NCBI GenBank assembly: GCA_040902655.1
Contig: JBBDWV010000041.1
Span: 28,014 to 60,636 of the forward strand
Direction of reading: 5' to 3'
Length of the DNA stretch: 32,623 nucleotides
Source: Mycobacteriales bacterium
GTDB taxonomy: Bacteria > Actinomycetota > Actinomycetes > Mycobacteriales > SCTD01
Position numbers and translations under genes: made by a program
Notes under the pieces: model-generated
What the model saw: the letters and a program-made list of their open reading frames with translations, nothing else
Told to the model about the DNA's origin: nothing
Databases searched by the model: none
In this document: positions 7,265 to 27,363 of the stretch, piece after piece
Layout of the letters: each line of letters starts with the position of its first letter
Numbering within the stretch: position 1 is the first letter of the stretch

Positions 7265-7531
7265 TCAGGAGCCGGCGTCCTCCTGCCGCCGTCGCACCTC
7301 GGCCCCGTCGGTCCCGCCAGCGCTTCCGGCGTCCTCCTCGACCGGCTCGCGGGCGTAGTTGCGGACCAGCGCGGACAGCAGCGAGCCGCCGCCCCAGGCC
7401 AGCAGGAGGGCGGCGGCGTAGCGCAGGCCGGCCTCCGCCGTGCTGAGCTCGCCGGCCAGCAGTGGTGGCAGGACAGGCAGCCACAGGAGCACGGACACCA
7501 GCAGCACCAAGCCGCGGACGGCCTCGCTCAT
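7265..7531 (-). CDS. Small two-helix membrane protein, last gene of the flhA operon
   Basis: No family recognised. The 88 residues have two hydrophobic helices (about 6-26 and 36-57) and a charged cytoplasmic-looking tail rich in Glu, Arg and Asp. The start ATG overlaps the stop of the PilZ gene (ATGA), so it is translationally coupled and the last gene of the flagellar transcript, convergent with the VanZ-like gene 38 bases away. The coupling suggests a flagellar or c-di-GMP-related role, but nothing in the sequence proves it. Confidence 0.75.
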   Translation of the reverse strand: MSEAVRGLVLLVSVLLWLPVLPPLLAGELSTAEAGLRYAAALLLAWGGGSLLSALVRNYAREPVEEDAGSAGGTDGAEVRRRQEDAGS

Positions 7532-8145
7532 GTCCGGCCCACCGCGCGGGCCCGCCGCTGCTGCTCCATCACCCTGCGGTGCAGGACGTCGGCGGTCCGG
7601 CCGAGGGCGGCGAAGCGCAGCCGCGCCACCTGCCGGTCATCGCTTCCCAGCTCGACGCTGAGCACCTCGGCTGCCAGCGCGAGCTGGCGCCCGTCCAGCG
7701 ACAGGTGGAGCTCCACGGTGCCGCCGACGACCGGCGCCTCACCCGGCCGCAGGACGCATCGGGCGCCGCCTTCGCTGAGGTCGACAACGATGGCGCGCCA
7801 GCGGTGCTCCGCCTGCGTCAGCTCGACCGGCAGCGCATCGGGGGCGCGTGCGAAGGCCCGTTGCTGGGACACCATCGGGTCGTGCAGCACCTCCAGCTCC
7901 CACAGGGGCATGTGGTCCCAGAGCTGCGAGGCCAGCACGGCCGTCAGCTGGTGCAGGCCCGCGCTCGTCTTCCAGCTCAGCACCAGCGTGGTGCCGGCCG
8001 GTAGGTCGAGCTCGACGGGTACCGGCTGCCGCAGGACGAGGCAGCGTGGTGGGCGGACGTCGTCGACGATGCAGATCCGGTCCAAGGCGCCGTCGATCGC
8101 GACGCTCACCTGCTGACCGGCGACCGGCCAGGTCGGGGCGCGCAC
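7528..8145 (-). CDS. PilZ-domain protein (YcgR-like c-di-GMP receptor)
   Basis: YcgR-type proteins bind cyclic di-GMP and slow or stop the flagellar motor. Residues 1-90 form a beta-rich N-terminal domain like the YcgR N-domain. Residues 94-200 form a PilZ domain with both ligand motifs: RxxxR at R96-R100 (RAFAR) and DxSxxG at D122-G127 (DLSEGG). So c-di-GMP binding is expected. GTG start one base after the FlhF-like stop; its own stop overlaps the next small membrane gene. Position in the flhA operon supports a role as motor brake; the actual motor contact (MotA, FliG or FliM) cannot be read from sequence. Confidence 0.85.
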   Translation of the reverse strand: MRAPTWPVAGQQVSVAIDGALDRICIVDDVRPPRCLVLRQPVPVELDLPAGTTLVLSWKTSAGLHQLTAVLASQLWDHMPLWELEVLHDPMVSQQRAFARAPDALPVELTQAEHRWRAIVVDLSEGGARCVLRPGEAPVVGGTVELHLSLDGRQLALAAEVLSVELGSDDRQVARLRFAALGRTADVLHRRVMEQQRRARAVGRT

Positions 8146-8146
8146 G

Positions 8147-9598
8147 TCAGGCTGCCACGCGGCCGGTCAGCAGCGCGGCCCAGCTCGACGGGGTCGCCGG
8201 CTGCTCGCCGAGGCGGGCAACCGGGATGCCCAGCTCCAGCACCGCAGCCGGGTCCGACGTCTCGTCCACCGCGCTGAGGGCCAGCGCGTCGAAGCCGCCG
8301 ACGGCGCGGGCGAAGGCACCCACGTCGTAGGACTTGCGGGTGGCTTCGACCGCACCCCACGTCGCAGACGCGTCGAGAGCGGAGAGGTAGGCCCGCGCCT
8401 GCACGGCGCCGGCTGAGGTCATGGGAGCATCGATCGCGACGATCGTGAGGTTGCGGCGCCGACGCCACGTGGTGCGGCAGGTCTCCGCCGAGTCCACGTC
8501 GCGCAGGACCTGGCGCTCGGGCAGGTCGGTCAGTGTCCGGCGGGAGGTGGCCAGCACCACGGCGGACGCGACGGGCAGACCGAGTTCGCGGGCCATCGCC
8601 CGAGCCGTCTCGAGCGACTGGGGCAGCGGACCGACGACCGCCAGCACGGCACCCGCCCGGTTGACGAGGGCAGGCACCTCCGGCAGACCGCCCAGGCTCT
8701 TCAGGAGTGCGGGGTAGAGGGCATCGTCCGTGCCGAAGGGCTGCAGGTACGCCGGCAGGCCCAGCCGGGCCAGCTGGCCGCCCAGCGTGGAGGCGCCGGG
8801 GGCACGCCCGAAGGGCAGGTTCACCGGCAGCGCCACGGGCGCCGTCAGCAGCGCGTCCTCGGAGGTGCGGGCCGCCGGGATGATGACGGGAGCGACCGGA
8901 CGGGGCTCGAGGAACTGCGGCACCGCGGTCCCCGCCCGCGCCGCCGGCGGCGTGCCGGCCGCGGCATCGAGGTTGGCCAGCAGGGCAGCGAAGGTGCTGC
9001 CCTCGGTGGAGACGTGCGCATTCGCGCGGTCGAGGATTCCCAGGTCCGCGGCAGGACGGTCGGCGGGCGCGGGGCCCTGCGCGGCCTCCACGGTGCCCTC
9101 CAGCGTCACGGGTGCGACGGCGACCGGAGCGGCGACCGGTGCTGCGGCCGGCTGCGGTGCGGATAGCAGCGGGATCGCGGACGGTCCGGTACCGGTCATC
9201 GCCTCCAGGCTCGCGAGCACGGAGGCGAACGACCTGCCCGCGCCGGAAGCCGTGGGGCTGCCGGCCGGCTCGGCCGGGGCGGCGGCCGGGGTCACGGTCG
9301 GGGCCGGGGTCGGCTCGGTCCTGGACTGCAGCGACAGCCCGGAGTGCTCACTGTCGCTCACCTGGTCGGCCAGCTCCAGCAGCGACAGCGGCCTGTCGGC
9401 CGGCTTGTCGGCCACCGTGGCCGGTGCGTCCCCGACCTCGACGCTGACCTCGAAGCGCTGCTTGGCGAAGAAGCCGGCGATCCCACCGGTGCGCACCTTC
9501 TCGGCGCGCACGATGCGGGCACCTGCGCCCAGCTCGTTCTTCACCCTGGCGAGCAGGGCCTCCAGGTCCGGTCCCTCAAGCTGCAACTGCGTGGGCAC
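8147..9598 (-). CDS. FlhF-like protein with degenerate GTPase domain
   Basis: FlhF is an SRP-family GTPase that fixes flagellar position and number. Here residues 1-55 match the FlhF B domain (DLEALLARVKNELGAGARIV, then FFAKQRFEVSVEV). Residues 60-300 are a long Ala/Pro-rich linker with two FASVLASLEA/FAALLANLDA-like helices. Residues 310-483 keep the outline of the NG domain (SAVDETSDPAAVLELGIPVARLGEQ at about 442-466 corresponds to the TKLDET...GQ region). However, the P-loop GxxGxGKT is replaced by VGPLPQSLETA (322-332) and the DTAGR motif by IDAPMTSAG (389-397). It should not bind or hydrolyse GTP in the usual way. GTG start, with GGAG nine bases upstream; overlaps the flhA end by 23 bases. 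Confidence 0.75.
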   Translation of the reverse strand: MPTQLQLEGPDLEALLARVKNELGAGARIVRAEKVRTGGIAGFFAKQRFEVSVEVGDAPATVADKPADRPLSLLELADQVSDSEHSGLSLQSRTEPTPAPTVTPAAAPAEPAGSPTASGAGRSFASVLASLEAMTGTGPSAIPLLSAPQPAAAPVAAPVAVAPVTLEGTVEAAQGPAPADRPAADLGILDRANAHVSTEGSTFAALLANLDAAAGTPPAARAGTAVPQFLEPRPVAPVIIPAARTSEDALLTAPVALPVNLPFGRAPGASTLGGQLARLGLPAYLQPFGTDDALYPALLKSLGGLPEVPALVNRAGAVLAVVGPLPQSLETARAMARELGLPVASAVVLATSRRTLTDLPERQVLRDVDSAETCRTTWRRRRNLTIVAIDAPMTSAGAVQARAYLSALDASATWGAVEATRKSYDVGAFARAVGGFDALALSAVDETSDPAAVLELGIPVARLGEQPATPSSWAALLTGRVAA

Positions 9599-11630
9599 CT
9601 GTCACGACTCCGATCGTGTCGAGCTGAAGCTGGTCGGCCAGCTCCGCGTAGGAGAGAACGGGCAGCCGCGGCGCGGCGGTCCTGGTCAGCTTGCGGACGG
9701 CGGGCCGCAGTTGCGGCGAGCAGACGAGCACCGGGCGTTCGCCGCGCTGCTCGGCCTGCTGGGCCTGGTTGGCGACACCGAGGACGAGCCGCTCGGCGTA
9801 CGCCGGGTCCAGGGCCAGGAAGCTGCCACCGTCGCCGGGTCGCAGGGCCTCGAGCATCGCGTGCTCGGCCAGCGGCTCGAAGGTCAGGACGGGCAGCCGG
9901 CCGTCGACGGCGTAGGCCATCGAGATGGCCGCCCCCAGGTTGGCGCGCGCAGCCTCCACGAGGGCCTCGGGGTCCTTGGTCGCGCGGGCCCGCTCGGAGA
10001 TCGCCTCGAAGATGCGGACCAGGTCGCGTACGGCGACCTCCTCCTCCAGCAGCCCCTGCAGGACCCGCTGGATCTCGCCCAGGGTCAGCTGCGCCGGGGT
10101 GAGCTCGTCGACCACGGTCGGGGCGCTGCGGCGCACCATGTCGACCAGCATCTTGACGTCCTCGCGGCCCAGCAGGCGGGAGGCGGAGGTACGCACGACC
10201 TCGGCCAGGTGCGTGGTGATCACCGAGGCGCGGTCGACGACCGTGCAGCCCATGATCTCGGCCTGCTGCTGGAGTTCGCTCGGCACCCACTTGGCGGGCA
10301 GGCCGAAGACCGGCTCGCGGGTCACGACGCCGGGCAGCGCGGTCAGGTCGTCGCCGATCACGAGGACGGATCCGGTGGGCGCCTCGCCCCGGCCGGCCTC
10401 GACCCCGTGCACCTTGATCGAGTAGTGGTGCGGCGGCAGGTCCAGGTTGTCCCGGGTGCGCACGAGCGGGATCACGATGCCCAGGTCGAGCGCCAGCTTG
10501 CGGCGCAGCGAGCGGACCCGGTCGAGCAGGTCGCCGCCCATCGACGGGTCGACGAGCTCCACCAGGTCGTACGCGACCTCGAGCTCGAGGGGCTCGACCC
10601 GCATGTCGTTGGCCAGCGCCTCGGGGGAGTCGGGGGAGGCGGCCGGCAGCTCCGGGGTCTGCGCCTCGGCGGCGCTGGCGGCGGCCTGCTGGTCGTCCGG
10701 CAGTCGCATGGAGATGATCAGCACCGTGATCCCGACGAGCAGGAAGGGGAACTTCGGGAGCCCGGGCACGAGGGCGAGCAGGCAGACGGCGCCGCCGGCC
10801 ATCCGGACCGCCGAACGCTGCCGGCCGATCTGGCCGAGCAGGTCCGATCCCATGTCGCCGTGGGTGGCCGAGCGGGTGACGATCAGGCCGCTGGCGACGG
10901 AGATGAGCAGCGCCGGGATCGCCGTGACCAGGCCGTCGCCGATGGTGAGCAGGCTGAAGGTGGAGATCGCCTCGCTCATCGGCATGCCCCGCTGGGCGAC
11001 GCCGATGAGGAAGCCACCGAACAGGTTGATCGTGGTGATCAGGATGCCGGCGATGGCGTCGCCCTTGACGAACTTGGAGGCACCGTCCATCGCGCCGTAG
11101 AAGTCGGCCTCCGCGGCGACGTCGGCCCGACGCTGGCGGGCCGTGTCCTCGTCGATCAGGCCGGAGTTGAGGTCGGCGTCGATGGCCATCTGCTTGCCGG
11201 GCATCGCGTCGAGGGTGAACCGGGCGCCGACCTCGGCGACCCGGCCGGCACCGTTGGTGATGACGACGAACTGGATCACCATCAGGATCAGGAAGATCAC
11301 CAGGCCGACGATGAGCGAGCCGCCGATGACGAACTCGCCGAAGCTCTCGACCACCTTGCCGGCGTAGCCGTCCAGCAGCACCAGCCGGGTCGAGCTGACG
11401 TTGAGCGCCAGCCGGAACATGGTGGCGACCAGCAGCAGCGCCGGGAAGATGGCGAAGTCCAGCGGGCGCTTCGCGTACATGCTGACCAGCAGGATCAGCA
11501 GCGCGCCGGTGATGTTGACGACGATCAGCAGGTCCAGGACGAACGCCGGCAGGGGGACGACCATCATCAAGACGATGGCGACGACGGCGGCGGGTATTGC
11601 CATGTGGCCGAAGCGGCTCTTGCTCTTCAA
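9576..11630 (-). CDS. flhA: Flagellar export gate protein FlhA
   Basis: Main export gate of the flagellar type III apparatus; uses the proton motive force and docks chaperone-substrate complexes. At 684 residues it is the usual length. The N-terminal ~310 residues hold about eight membrane helices. The FHIPEP signature lies at about 127-150 (NGAGRVAEVGARF then AMPGKQMAIDADL). The C-terminal ~340 residues are the cytoplasmic docking domain. Start is TTG at 11630, with GAGGA just upstream; ATG at residue 10 is the alternative. It is separated from flhB by 93 bases containing a sigma-28-like promoter, so it can be transcribed apart from the upstream operon. Confidence 0.96.
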   Translation of the reverse strand: MKSKSRFGHMAIPAAVVAIVLMMVVPLPAFVLDLLIVVNITGALLILLVSMYAKRPLDFAIFPALLLVATMFRLALNVSSTRLVLLDGYAGKVVESFGEFVIGGSLIVGLVIFLILMVIQFVVITNGAGRVAEVGARFTLDAMPGKQMAIDADLNSGLIDEDTARQRRADVAAEADFYGAMDGASKFVKGDAIAGILITTINLFGGFLIGVAQRGMPMSEAISTFSLLTIGDGLVTAIPALLISVASGLIVTRSATHGDMGSDLLGQIGRQRSAVRMAGGAVCLLALVPGLPKFPFLLVGITVLIISMRLPDDQQAAASAAEAQTPELPAASPDSPEALANDMRVEPLELEVAYDLVELVDPSMGGDLLDRVRSLRRKLALDLGIVIPLVRTRDNLDLPPHHYSIKVHGVEAGRGEAPTGSVLVIGDDLTALPGVVTREPVFGLPAKWVPSELQQQAEIMGCTVVDRASVITTHLAEVVRTSASRLLGREDVKMLVDMVRRSAPTVVDELTPAQLTLGEIQRVLQGLLEEEVAVRDLVRIFEAISERARATKDPEALVEAARANLGAAISMAYAVDGRLPVLTFEPLAEHAMLEALRPGDGGSFLALDPAYAERLVLGVANQAQQAEQRGERPVLVCSPQLRPAVRKLTRTAAPRLPVLSYAELADQLQLDTIGVVTGAHAVAA

Positions 11631-21456: not shown

Positions 21457-22863
21457 CTACATCCGTAGGTCGAGGGCGGCGTCCGGGTCCGGAGCCGGGG
21501 CGGGTACGGGGGAGTCGTCGCTGTCGGCGGCGCCCTGGCCGCCGGAGCGACGCTGTGCGGCCGACTTGTCGCGCTGGTCGTCGGCCTTGCCGCTGTCGAC
21601 CGACAGGTCGCTGGCGGTGAGGCCATGGGCCTCCAGCTGCTGGCGCAGGTCGGCCAACGAGGCCCGCAGCAGCTCCTTGGAGACGTCGTCGGCGGCATGC
21701 ATCGCCACGCTGATCTCGCCGCCACGCAGCGAGATCTCGACCTGGACCGCGCCGAGCTCTTCGGGGTAGAGCTTCAGCGACATGGTGTAGCTGCCGTCCG
21801 GGCCCTCGAGCACCGGCGCGAGCTGGGTGACGACCTGGGTGGCCGGCGGTGCGGCCGGTGCCGGAGGTGCGGGAGGCACCGGCGTGCTGACCGGACGGGT
21901 GTCGGTCTGCGGTGCGGCGGCGACGGCCTCGGTGGAGACCGGGCCGGTCGGACCGGCCGGGCCGGCAGGGCGGGACTCAGCCGGGGTAGCCGGTGCGGCG
22001 GTCAGCGCGGCGGGAGGTTCGTCGGCGGGCTCATCGGAGCCGTCGCCCGTGGCCGATGCCTGCTCGACGGCGGTCGCCTCGACAGCGGTCGCATCACCGG
22101 CGGCCGGGTCCTGGGACCCGACCGGGCCGACGGTCGCCGGCTGCGCCGACGCCGGGTGGCTCGCACCCGTGGCGGCCGGCCCGCTGCTGGAGGCGGTGGC
22201 GGAAACGGAGGCGGAGCCCGTGGCGGAGGCGGAGGCGGAGCCTGTGGCGGCCGGCGCGGTGCCGGTGCTGGTGGCGGTGGCGTCTGCCTGCCCGGGCGCC
22301 CCTCCGGGGGAGGCCGTGCCGGCGAGAGCCGGCGTGCCGGTTCCCGTCGTGGTTCCCGCCGCGCTGGCCGGCAGTGCGCCGGCCGGAGCGCCGGGTGAGG
22401 TCCCGGTTGCCGGAGCGCTCTCCTCGGCTGCGGCAGGGACGGCGGAAGCGGCGGGAGTCGAGCCGGGGAGGCCGGCACCGGCCGGCGGGGCGGGAGTCGA
22501 GCCGGGGAGGCCGGCACCGGCCGGCGTACCGGCCGGCACCTCGGTGCCGGGGAGGCCGCCGGCCAGCACGGGCCCATCGGCAGCGGCGGGCACCTCGGTG
22601 CCGGCAAGGCCACTGGCCAGCACGGCCCCACCGGTCAGGACAGGCCCACCGGTCAGCACGGACCCGTTCGCGGTCGACCCGCTCGGCAGCCCGCTGGTGG
22701 CGGACCCGCCGGCCGTGTCCGCGGTCACGGCCGAAGGGGAGGCCCCCGACACCAGACCGGCCAGCATCGCGGCGAAGTCGTCGGCTGCGGCCGGGGACGT
22801 CGCACGGCCGGCTGCGCTCTTCGCCGGCGCCGCGCCCGCGGGCAGGGTGCTCACCGTGGTCAT
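21457..22863 (-). CDS. fliK: Flagellar hook-length control protein FliK
   Basis: Secreted ruler that measures the hook and triggers the FlhB switch. 468 residues. The N-terminal two-thirds are Ala/Gly/Pro/Ser/Thr-rich and repetitive. The conserved hook-length domain is at about 350-435: DGSYTMSLKLYPEELGAVQV, then VEISLRGGEISVAMHA and LRASLADLRQQLEAHGL. Start ATG 22863 overlaps the preceding hydrolase stop (ATGA). Ruler length should depend on the repeat-rich part; see the 39-bp repeat at 22452-22529. Confidence 0.93.
   Translation of the reverse strand: MTTVSTLPAGAAPAKSAAGRATSPAAADDFAAMLAGLVSGASPSAVTADTAGGSATSGLPSGSTANGSVLTGGPVLTGGAVLASGLAGTEVPAAADGPVLAGGLPGTEVPAGTPAGAGLPGSTPAPPAGAGLPGSTPAASAVPAAAEESAPATGTSPGAPAGALPASAAGTTTGTGTPALAGTASPGGAPGQADATATSTGTAPAATGSASASATGSASVSATASSSGPAATGASHPASAQPATVGPVGSQDPAAGDATAVEATAVEQASATGDGSDEPADEPPAALTAAPATPAESRPAGPAGPTGPVSTEAVAAAPQTDTRPVSTPVPPAPPAPAAPPATQVVTQLAPVLEGPDGSYTMSLKLYPEELGAVQVEISLRGGEISVAMHAADDVSKELLRASLADLRQQLEAHGLTASDLSVDSGKADDQRDKSAAQRRSGGQGAADSDDSPVPAPAPDPDAALDLRM
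22452..22529 (-). repeat. 39-bp tandem repeat inside fliK
   Basis: Two near-identical 39-bp units starting at 22452 and 22491, encoding GAGLPGST plus PA-type linkers, with diverged partial copies on the higher-coordinate side (GGLPGTEVPA). Unit length keeps the reading frame. Confidence 0.75.
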
Positions 22864-23900
22864 GCAGCCTCCGCTCGGAGCTCGGCCATGATCTTGCGGA
22901 CGTAGTTCTGGGTCTCCTTGTACGGCGGGATGCCGCCGTGCTTGGTGACCGCGCCGGGACCGGCGTTGTAGGCGGCCAGTGCCAGCTCGGTCGAGCCGAA
23001 GCGCGCCAGGTGCGACTTCAGCAGCCGGGCCGCGCCGTCCACGGCCTCCGCCGGCTTCCAGGGGTCGATGCCGAGCCCGCCGGCGGTGGCCGGCATGAAC
23101 TGCATGAGTCCCTGCGCACCCGCGGGGCTCTTCGCGGCCGGGTTGAACCCGGACTCGGCCCGGGCGACGGCGGTGAGCAGGGCGGGGGAGACGCCGTGGC
23201 GTTGCCCGGCGCTCTGGAACAGGCCGGCGAACGCCGCCTCGCCGGAGCCGGCGCCGGAGCCGGCGGCGGGCCCGGCGGACCGCAGCGCACCGGCGAAGCC
23301 GGCGGCCGCAGCCGGGGCGGACGAGGCCGCGCCGTCGGGCAGGATCCGCCGGATGGTGGTGGCCTTCGACAGGTCGACGTTCTGCATCTTGACCACGTCG
23401 CCGGTCTTCGGGGCGACCACCCACTGGCCGTCCCCGGCGTACATGCCGATGTGGTCGGGGGCTGGGCGCTCGCGCTTGAAGAAGACGAGGTCGCCCGGGC
23501 GGGCCTCGGCGGCGCTGACCTCGCGGCCGGCCGTGGCCTGGTCGCGCGAGACGCGCGGGATGTCGATGCCGAACTGCTTGTAGGTGTACTGCATCAGCCC
23601 GGAGCAGTCGAAGCCGCCGGGTGCCGCGCCGCCCCAGACGTAGGGCGTGCCCAGGTGCTCCTTGGCCTTCGCGAGGACCGCGGCGCCGTCGACGCCGGCT
23701 CCGGGTCCGCTCGCGCGGGACAGCTGGGTCTGCGAGCTGGCCAGTACGTTGCCGAACGCGGCGCTGGCGCCGACACTGCCGGGCCGGGCGGCCGCGGCGG
23801 TCGCCATGGCGGGACGGGCGGCGAGCTGGATGGCCGGGGCCGGGAAGCGGCTCTGGATCTCCAGCATCCGGGACTGGACGGCGGCGAGCCCGGTGCTCAT
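22860..23900 (-). CDS. Flagellar peptidoglycan hydrolase: NlpC/P60 plus lytic transglycosylase
   Basis: Two wall-cutting domains in one 346-residue protein. NlpC/P60 endopeptidase, about 72-188: catalytic Cys99 in FDCSG and His150 in DHIGMY; the third polar residue, expected before AP at position 162, is Val. SLT-type lytic transglycosylase, about 225-345: catalytic Glu249 in ARAESGFNP, then GAQGLMQFMPATA and LALAAYNAGPGAV. No classical signal peptide, so export through the flagellar apparatus is likely, as for FlgJ, which it probably replaces in opening the wall for the rod. Residues 1-35 contain the QSRMLEIQSRF motif seen in such flagellar proteins. ATG has AGGAG six bases upstream and overlaps the fliJ stop. 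Confidence 0.9.
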   Translation of the reverse strand: MSTGLAAVQSRMLEIQSRFPAPAIQLAARPAMATAAAARPGSVGASAAFGNVLASSQTQLSRASGPGAGVDGAAVLAKAKEHLGTPYVWGGAAPGGFDCSGLMQYTYKQFGIDIPRVSRDQATAGREVSAAEARPGDLVFFKRERPAPDHIGMYAGDGQWVVAPKTGDVVKMQNVDLSKATTIRRILPDGAASSAPAAAAGFAGALRSAGPAAGSGAGSGEAAFAGLFQSAGQRHGVSPALLTAVARAESGFNPAAKSPAGAQGLMQFMPATAGGLGIDPWKPAEAVDGAARLLKSHLARFGSTELALAAYNAGPGAVTKHGGIPPYKETQNYVRKIMAELRAEAA

Positions 23901-24328
23901 CGGTCGCTCCTGCCGTGGCGGGAGACGACCAGCTCGTCGGTGGTCAGCTCGTCCTCCTTCTGGGTCTGGGCCTGGTGCTCGCTGCGCTGCCGTTCGTCGA
24001 GCCGCTCCAGCGCACCCACGCGCGAGGCGGTCTCGCTCCATGCAGTGCGGGCCCGCGTGGCGTCCTCGTGAGCGCGACGCACCCGGCCGCGCTGCTCGAT
24101 CACAGCGGCAGCGAAAGCCGATCGGGTGGACTGCTCGAAGAGGAAATCGGCACGTGGCTGGATTCCTGAAGGAATGAGGCACTTCTCGTACGCCGCCGTC
24201 TGCTCGGTGAGCTGCTGCTCCTGCGTCCTGATCGCGGCGTTGGCGGCCAGCAGCTGCCCGCGCGCAGCCTCCTCCTGCATGCGGCGTACGCGCAAAACCG
24301 GCTCCAGGCGGAAGTGGTAGCGCTTCAC
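23897..24328 (-). CDS. fliJ: Flagellar export chaperone FliJ
   Basis: Coiled-coil stalk of the export ATPase, resembling the gamma subunit of F1. 143 residues, nearly all helical, starting KRYHFRLEPVLRVRRMQEE and continuing with Gln/Glu/Arg-rich heptads. GTG start overlaps the fliI stop (GTGA), as expected for coupled synthesis with the ATPase. Low sequence conservation; position between fliI and the hydrolase/fliK genes is decisive. Confidence 0.9.
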   Translation of the reverse strand: MKRYHFRLEPVLRVRRMQEEAARGQLLAANAAIRTQEQQLTEQTAAYEKCLIPSGIQPRADFLFEQSTRSAFAAAVIEQRGRVRRAHEDATRARTAWSETASRVGALERLDERQRSEHQAQTQKEDELTTDELVVSRHGRSDR

Positions 24329-25623: not shown

Positions 25624-26366
25624 GGCTGCTGTCCCCGCAGCACCGCGGCGACGCGGGCCAGCGCCGGACCGATCTGCGCGTCGACCTGCCGACCGGCGGC
25701 CTCCACGACGCAGCCGCCGCGCTCGATCGAGCGGTCCGCGACGACGACCACGCGACGCCCCGCGGCGAGCGAGTTCACCTCGCCCAGGACCGCGGCGTCG
25801 TCCGGGTGGAGCTTCGCGGTGGCGGCGCAGTCCTCGGGAGCCAGCACCAGCGCCCGCACGAGCGCGTCACGTCCGGGGTTCTCGCTGATCGAGAGCTCCC
25901 GGTCGAGCACGGCCCGGGCGACGTCCAGCGCCAGATCGACGACCTGGTGCTCGATCTCGGCCAGGCTGACGGCTTCCCGCTGGCGGAAGGCCTCAGCTGC
26001 CCCGGCCAGCAGCGCGACCGCCTCGACCAGCTGTGCCTGCTGTCGTGCCTGCGCGTCGGCGGCCTGCTGGGCAGCGTGCTCGGCGGCGACGTGCGCCTCT
26101 GCCGTGGCGACCGCCAGGCCGGCGGCGTAGCCGGCCCGGTGGCCTTCGGCGTGTCCCTGCTCGACGGCCTGCTGCCGGGCCGTCGCGACGACGTCCTGCA
26201 GGTGCGGGTCGGTCAGCCGGGCATCCACGGTGTGGATCGGGGCGAACGGGCTGGTGCGCAGGTCGGCGTCCATCCGGGCCGGCCGCACCCCGTGGGCATC
26301 GCTGCCGCGCAGGACGGTGCCGCGCTGGGCGGTCCCGTGCACGGGAGTCTCAGACCACGTACTCAT
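25620..26366 (-). CDS. fliH: Flagellar assembly protein FliH
   Basis: Peripheral stalk and regulator of FliI. 248 residues: a variable N-terminus, a long Ala/Gln/Glu coiled coil (about 58-130, with the GHAEGHRAGYAAGLA Gly-repeat segment typical of FliH), and a C-terminal domain (about 135-240; LHPDDAAVL and SIERGGCVVEAAGRQVDAQI match FliH/V-type E subunits). ATG start overlaps the end of fliG by 17 bases. Confidence 0.92.
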   Translation of the reverse strand: MSTWSETPVHGTAQRGTVLRGSDAHGVRPARMDADLRTSPFAPIHTVDARLTDPHLQDVVATARQQAVEQGHAEGHRAGYAAGLAVATAEAHVAAEHAAQQAADAQARQQAQLVEAVALLAGAAEAFRQREAVSLAEIEHQVVDLALDVARAVLDRELSISENPGRDALVRALVLAPEDCAATAKLHPDDAAVLGEVNSLAAGRRVVVVADRSIERGGCVVEAAGRQVDAQIGPALARVAAVLRGQQP

Positions 26367-27363
26367 CGCGGTCCCCTCGGCTGATGACGATCTGGCCGGA
26401 CTCCTCGAGCGATCGGATGGTCGAGATGACCACGGCCTGCGCCTCCTCGACGGTGGCGAGGCGGACCGGACCGAGCATCTCGATCTCGTCGGCCAGCGTG
26501 AGCGCGGCGCGCTCCGACACGTTGTTCATGATCTTGTCGCGGAGATCCTGGCTGACGCCCTTCAGCGCCGTCGCCAGCTCCTTGGAGTCGACCTGGCGCA
26601 GCACCAGCTGCACGGAGCGGTCGTCGAGCGTGAGGACGTCCTCGAACATGAACATCTGGCTGCGGACCTCTTCGGCGAGCGCCGGGTCGCGCCGCTCCAG
26701 CCCCTCCAGGATCAGCCGCTCGGTCGCCCGGTCGGAGTTGTTGATGATGTCGATGAGCGGCTGGAGGCCGCCGGCGGCGGAGAAGTCGTTGGACTGCAGC
26801 ACCGAGGAGAGCTTGCGCTCGAGAATGGTCTCGACCTGCCGGATCACCTCCGGGGAGGTGTTCTCCATGGTGGCGACCCGGTGGGCGACGTCGGCCTGCA
26901 GGTCGTTCGGCATGCCGGACAGCACGACCGCGGCCTGCTCGGCCCGCATGTGGGCCAGCACCAGGGCGACCGTCTGCGGGTGCTCGTCCTGCAGGAAGGA
27001 CAGCACCTGGCGCGCATCCGCCCGGCGCAGGAACTCGAAGGGCATCTCGACCAGCGAGGCCTCCATCCGCTTGAGCAGCTCGGCGGCCTTCTCCGCCCCC
27101 ATGCTGGCCTCGAGGATCTCGCGGGCGAAGTCCATGCCGCCCTTGCCGTAGTGCCGGCGAGCGGTGGCGAGCTCCTGGAACTCCTCCATCACCGCGTCGA
27201 CGACGTCGTTGCCGACGGCCTCCAGGCGGGCGATCTCGTTGAGGACCTCCTCGACCTCGCTCTCGCGCAGCGACTTCAGGACGAGGGCGGAGCGCTCCCG
27301 ACCGAGCTGCACGAGCAGGATGGCGGCCTTCTGCGGTCCGGTGATCGTGGCGGTGTCGGCCAT
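26350..27363 (-). CDS. fliG: Flagellar motor switch protein FliG
   Basis: Rotor protein that meets the stator and sets rotation sense. 337 residues, normal. N-terminal FliF-binding part starts GPQKAAILLVQLG; the middle domain carries EHPQT (127-131) in FLQDEHPQTVALVLAHM; the C-terminal domain has the torque helix region (DDRSVQLVLRQVDSKELATAL, then LRDKIMNNVSERAA). ATG has GGAGG eight bases upstream, two bases after the fliF stop. Confidence 0.96.
   Translation of the reverse strand: MADTATITGPQKAAILLVQLGRERSALVLKSLRESEVEEVLNEIARLEAVGNDVVDAVMEEFQELATARRHYGKGGMDFAREILEASMGAEKAAELLKRMEASLVEMPFEFLRRADARQVLSFLQDEHPQTVALVLAHMRAEQAAVVLSGMPNDLQADVAHRVATMENTSPEVIRQVETILERKLSSVLQSNDFSAAGGLQPLIDIINNSDRATERLILEGLERRDPALAEEVRSQMFMFEDVLTLDDRSVQLVLRQVDSKELATALKGVSQDLRDKIMNNVSERAALTLADEIEMLGPVRLATVEEAQAVVISTIRSLEESGQIVISRGDRDEYVV

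Follow-up and report, generated by a model that had tools for sequence, protein, structure and literature searches.

The accepted description of FlhF, as studied in B. subtilis, Shewanella, Vibrio and Pseudomonas, is of a switch that is driven by GTP and works as a pair with FlhG, whose DQAxxLR motif stimulates FlhF (PMC12826062). In these systems the gene follows flhA, and the protein, which homodimerises in a GTP-dependent manner, combines an N-terminal FliG-interaction domain (FID, or B domain) with a flexible linker and an NG fold. Work in Shewanella has shown that the FID (residues 1-60) is both necessary and sufficient for FliG binding, and that the binding of the NG domain to HubP is unaffected by GDP or GTP (PMC11236974). 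The FlhF-FliG interaction of P. aeruginosa responds to nucleotide, being favoured by GTP and weakened by GDP (PMC12713375), and in Vibrio several GTPase-motif mutants lose their flagella altogether, whereas others, K305A among them, continue to produce some (PMC6092412). The data from these latter two organisms indicate that losing nucleotide binding has consequences in other lineages. Here we describe an actinobacterial homologue that shares the gene position and the three-part layout of these proteins, but lacks the G1, G3 and G4 motifs and an FlhG partner.

The gene lies on the minus strand at 8147..9598 of the window, the whole 32,623-nucleotide stretch of DNA that was analysed, and encodes 483 aa from a GTG start at 9598 to a stop at 8149-8147. 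Upstream, on the same strand, is flhA (9576..11603; TIGR01398, 828.8 bits), whose 3' end overlaps the start of the flhF homologue by 23 nt. One base past the latter begins a gene for a PilZ-domain protein (7528..8145, minus strand; PF07238, E 5e-12), which is followed by one for a small membrane protein of 88 aa (7265..7531, minus strand) whose start overlaps the PilZ stop. The pseudo-flhF gene is part of an operon flhA–pseudo-flhF–PilZ–small membrane protein. The place of the small membrane protein is conserved with the deep lineages considered below, and the PilZ gene occupies the place that flhG and then PilZ take in them. The remainder of the window consists of a flagellar cluster with, as named from their translations, flhB, fliR, fliQ, fliP, fliN, fliM, motA/B, flgE, flgD, fliK, fliI, fliG, fliF and others; the fliG product (26350..27363, minus strand) is the predicted binding partner of the FID, a role taken from the Shewanella work (PMC11236974). 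The cluster also holds an open reading frame (22860..24182, minus strand) whose translation apparently combines an NlpC/P60-like peptidase with a lytic transglycosylase-like domain, and which could serve in peptidoglycan penetration.

The protein divides into a predicted FID (residues 1-58; 9425..9598), an Ala/Pro-rich linker (residues 59-269; 8792..9424) and a C-terminal domain that we term the pseudo-NG domain (residues 270-483; 8150..8791), an SRP-GTPase fold devoid of nucleotide-binding motifs, all three on the minus strand, with the FID delimited by its profile match and by the definition from Shewanella (PMC11236974). The FlhF profile TIGR03499 aligns its positions 7-100 with residues 8-103 (E 2.9e-7), a match that is restricted to the B domain and the beginning of the linker, recurs in nine of ten members of an alignment of relatives, and at 30.8 bits stays below the curated equivalog cut-off of 174.15 bits. 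The window protein is hence a homologue of FlhF that stands outside the FlhF GTPase family as defined. Its pseudo-NG domain matches no Pfam family, and phmmer searches of the PDB sequences with the window protein returned chance matches only. Single relatives gave weak Pfam matches (TsiV, Pribosyltran and two DUFs), scattered over one to three members each, which we took to be due to chance.

The want of any Pfam match would suit a reading in which an unrelated Rossmann-like domain had been fused to an FlhF B domain. Against it stands the comparison of profiles: when aligned to intact actinobacterial FlhF, the pseudo-NG profile alone reaches an hhalign probability of 88% (E 2.8e-6) and the full-length profile 98% (E 1.5e-13), with the N-domain helix, beta1, the G3 strand, the TTK/TRK motif and the C-terminus all in register. 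The structural comparisons speak against it too. An AlphaFold2 model of the pseudo-NG domain, built from 42 sequences and spanning 222 residues, has a pLDDT of 95.2 and a pTM of 0.90 (a single-sequence model of the full protein, with a pLDDT of 39, was not used), and the 50 PDB matches listed by Foldseek are all SRP GTPases, namely Ffh/SRP54, FtsY and FlhF. VIA-align superimposes the model on FlhF of S. putrefaciens (8r9r) with Z 16.0 over 212 residues at 3.9 A and on that of B. subtilis (2px3) with Z 15.3. We therefore regard a domain fusion as extremely improbable; as modelled, the C-terminal domain is clearly of the SRP-GTPase NG type. The NG domains of Ffh and FtsY share this predicted fold (Z about 16), but those proteins retain their GTPase motifs and carry an M or A domain, unlike the window protein with its N-terminal FID, and their NG domains measure about 255-300 residues in contrast to the shorter 222 modelled here. 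In both alignment and model, the segment between the second strand and G3, the place of the IBD insertion (G2 region), seems shortened. The FlhF-like character that an earlier note on this DNA had read into the B domain and the outline of the NG domain is thus borne out, respectively by the profile match and by the alignment to intact FlhF together with a model that resembles the SRP GTPases rather than departing from them.

That note had further claimed that the GxxGxGKT and DTAGR motifs are gone, and so they are, together with G4. On the minus strand, the P-loop (G1) position reads VGPLPQSLETA (residues 322-332; 8603..8635), the G3 (DTAGR) position AIDAPMTSAG (residues 388-397; 8408..8437) and the G4 position (TKxD, TKLDE in the intact form) ALSAVDE (residues 440-446; 8261..8281). 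The signatures G..G.GK[ST], DTAG and TKxD are each absent from all 105 NG domains of the family, and all three occur in each of 11 intact FlhF controls; a loss common to every relative, set beside their presence in every control, is not a matter of chance. The preserved fold and a few nearly invariant positions, such as an ATRKxxD motif (8324..8344, minus strand) that aligns with the (A)TTKxxD of FlhF, might be thought to betray a divergent NTPase whose NG domain still binds nucleotide through a non-canonical site. We consider this distinctly unlikely, given that the P-loop, DTAGR and TKLD are missing from 105 of 105 members and that, in the model, a helix begins immediately after the first P-loop glycine, which would leave no phosphate-binding loop. 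A second, intact FlhF was also sought in the window's genome, and no match there passes the TIGR03499 cut-off; the other matches to that profile, confined to G-domain positions, were interpreted as Ffh/FtsY-type proteins and further P-loop proteins.

A profile search of 150 genomes from the order recovered relatives in 40. The named genome collection yielded another view of the family, with 148 relatives, of which 80 were kept for study; these come from Actinoplanes, Planobispora, Planomonospora, Micromonospora, Actinomadura, Acidothermus, Motilibacter, Cellulomonas, Actinotalea and Acidimicrobiia MAGs, among others. The retention of the gene after flhA, proposed from the single locus, proved general, as flhA lies directly upstream in 80 of 80 loci. 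Some relatives of family f16 (L012, L016, L026, L031 and L035) have a linker that runs to hundreds of residues, within open frames of up to about 1660 aa, and in which Ala/Glu/Arg repeats or Trp, Ser and Glu abound. One copy, L100, lies on a contig titled Proteobacteria MAG BP9.bin99; motif for motif it is nearly identical to that of the Actinomycetes MAG L122 from the same sample series and close to Cellulomonas-like forms, and the contig is probably mis-binned.

Median pairwise dN/dS values are 0.07 for the FID, 0.40 for the linker and 0.19 for the pseudo-NG domain (220-226 pairs per region, which are non-independent). The FID is the most conserved part of the protein, and the pseudo-NG domain retains 41% mean column identity with near-invariant positions. 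The purifying selection seen across the family indicates that the pseudo-NG domain is maintained rather than decaying. The earlier note had allowed that the window's copy might simply be decaying beside intact relatives; among the relatives examined in the class none has kept its P-loop intact, purifying selection acts on both domains, and the decay of this single copy is ruled out by the motifs it shares with its family and by the dN/dS values.

At the level of the class, the picture is one of further erosion in certain lineages. Among 49 flhA-positive class genomes that we opened, 26 have the FID with the pseudo-NG domain, three have an FID whose NG domain is missing or escaped detection (L218, L221 and, at a contig end, L256), one has the gene cut by the end of its contig, and in the other 19 flhA is followed by no FlhF-derived gene; nor did a profile search of those 19 genomes find a convincing pseudo-NG match elsewhere (one stood at E 5e-4). 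Of all parts of the protein, the FID persists longest: in Acidimicrobiia-like families, and in three genomes from the family of the window itself, it is joined to a shortened or unrecognisable remnant. In the latter three (L184, 6917-7891; L185, 6027-6908; and L186), the shorter form after flhA consists of the FID, N-domain-like helices and a G-domain remnant, and their FlhA proteins group with those of Acidimicrobiia-like lineages (SH-aLRT 99), a hint at the exchange of flagellar clusters within the family. Flagellated members of families f20, f21 and part of f22 (L224, L227, L228, L242, L243, L255, L261, L263 and L264) have no FlhF-derived gene after flhA; what comes next there is either a small membrane protein or csrA with genes for hook-associated proteins. 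Likewise, the small flhA-positive genomes of family f26 (L300, L306, L310, L312 and L313) have no FID or FlhF directly downstream, and their gene order may differ.

These FID-plus-stub forms and the complete losses in 19 of the 49 genomes are what one would expect of a relic, in which the GTPase function was lost and the gene drifts, kept only by its overlap with flhA and its place in the operon. However, such drift is at odds with the selective constraint and near-invariant positions of the pseudo-NG domain, with its well-folded predicted structure and with its retention across many families, and we hold this explanation to be unlikely.

The deeper history of the locus emerges from genomes in which FlhF is intact. 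TIGR03499 scores above its cut-off in 15 of 396 genomes of the phylum, all of them in three deep families, and the deep genomes that were opened have the order flhB-flhA-flhF-flhG-PilZ-position protein-small membrane protein, with an FlhG that bears the DQAxxLR motif. In the lineages f35, f36, f42, f56, f60, f70 and f73, FlhF has its P-loop and no flhG adjoins it. In three genomes (L304 and L305 of family f56, and L314), an open frame that starts at the edge of the locus, within the end of flhA, comprises both the FID and a P-loop FlhF, possibly as an flhA-flhF fusion or a long shared frame. True FlhG proteins in the controls score 467-526 bits with the FlhG profile, and the search for FlhG found only generic MinD/ParA matches, which reach at most about 60 bits in 24 pseudo-FlhF genomes (that of the window and 23 others) and at most about 54 bits in the P-loop-bearing intermediates tested. 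In the window's genome the best of these, at 48 bits, is a Soj/ParA-like protein; the MinD-like matches that were read individually, as candidates for an FlhG encoded elsewhere, are of the Mrp/ApbC or Soj types.

In a tree of 69 FlhA sequences, all P-loop-less or FlhF-less rows fall in one clade (SH-aLRT 100) and the P-loop holders form a basal grade. With FlhF and FlhG together in the deep lineages, P-loop-bearing intermediates that lack FlhG, and a single P-loop-less clade, FlhG was probably lost first and GTP binding thereafter; since the tree is a quick search rooted on the FlhG-bearing rows, this order is well suggested rather than proven. The P-loop-less form is confined to one actinobacterial clade, in keeping with the suggestion that it is specific to actinobacterial flagella. 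The degenerate FlhF recognised at the outset stands, and to it are now added two elements that the earlier note did not contain, namely the probably earlier loss of flhG and the continuing erosion.

The gene order bears on another possibility, that the pseudo-NG domain no longer has a part in positioning and has acquired a new function, serving the neighbouring PilZ protein as an adaptor that links FliG or basal-body assembly to c-di-GMP. A PilZ gene directly follows in the window, PilZ matches adjoin the gene in several relatives, and the order is kept from the deep lineages after the removal of flhG. Yet PilZ-position proteins already follow flhF-flhG where FlhF is intact, so that the PilZ neighbourhood is ancestral, and many loci returned no PilZ match in what was a single-sequence query. 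We therefore think it doubtful that PilZ coupling has supplanted a role in placement.

A GTP-independent scaffold or placement role fits these observations best. We propose, as the probable function, that the protein is a pseudo-GTPase working as a constitutive tether between FliG and a landmark, given that it retains the FID and NG modules but neither the nucleotide switch nor the activator of that switch. By analogy with Shewanella FlhF, the FID would bind FliG and thereby capture FliF-FliG (MS-ring/C-ring) building blocks, while the pseudo-NG domain, held permanently in one conformation, would dock nucleotide-free on a putative landmark or membrane partner. With the GTPase stimulator FlhG already lost, a GTP on/off cycle would have been left without its regulator, a situation that could have favoured a constitutive tether. 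Such a tether would bias the site or the number of basal bodies. Release, which elsewhere is proposed to be driven by GTP hydrolysis, would have to come about by another route, perhaps through FliM/FliN displacing the FID from FliG or through input from the neighbouring PilZ (c-di-GMP) protein. The GTP dependence seen in P. aeruginosa and Vibrio implies that the protein of the actinobacteria must have adjusted to working without the nucleotide. Conversely, flagellated relatives with an FID-plus-stub form or no such gene imply that the tether is dispensable in evolution, and that the pseudo-NG domain may matter little in places. On balance, we lean towards extending the proposal to the whole clade, in which nucleotide binding would have been abandoned and the protein turned, step by step, into a constitutive adaptor that links FliG to a polarity cue, with FlhG lost first, then the P-loop, and the FID kept under the strongest selection.

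Our search of open-licence papers found no biochemical or genetic work on this family, no description of a degenerate or pseudo-GTPase FlhF and no pseudo-GTPase of the SRP family. The nearest parallel is the dynein light intermediate chain, a G-domain fold described as a pseudo-GTPase (PMC4359372); that fold, however, is Ras-like and eukaryotic. In a motility-island table for Kineococcus, the genes between flhA (1673) and csrA (1677) are unnamed (PMC2587704). Actinobacterial classes without FlgFG have been reported as lacking FlhF too (Zhu et al., 2023; PMC10746217), on the basis of BLAST and PSI-BLAST searches with queries from B. subtilis or Salmonella. Over much of that clade FlhF is unrecognised rather than lost, and is often present as a pseudo-GTPase; in some lineages of the classes listed as FlhF-less it is shortened to an FID-plus-stub form or lost. 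This corrects the record of FlhF-less later actinobacterial classes.

If the proposal is true, the Ffh/FtsY/FlhF family would gain here, as far as the literature searched reaches, its first natural pseudo-GTPase branch, and flagellar placement would be shown to be possible without a GTP switch. Evolution has here dissected the GTP-driven switch, probably removing first FlhG and then GTP binding, and this natural dissection makes directly testable which part of the work of FlhF needs GTP. The open-licence literature examined names no spatial regulator for the flagella of zoospore formers such as Actinoplanes, and the pseudo-GTPase would give these organisms a named candidate for flagellar placement.
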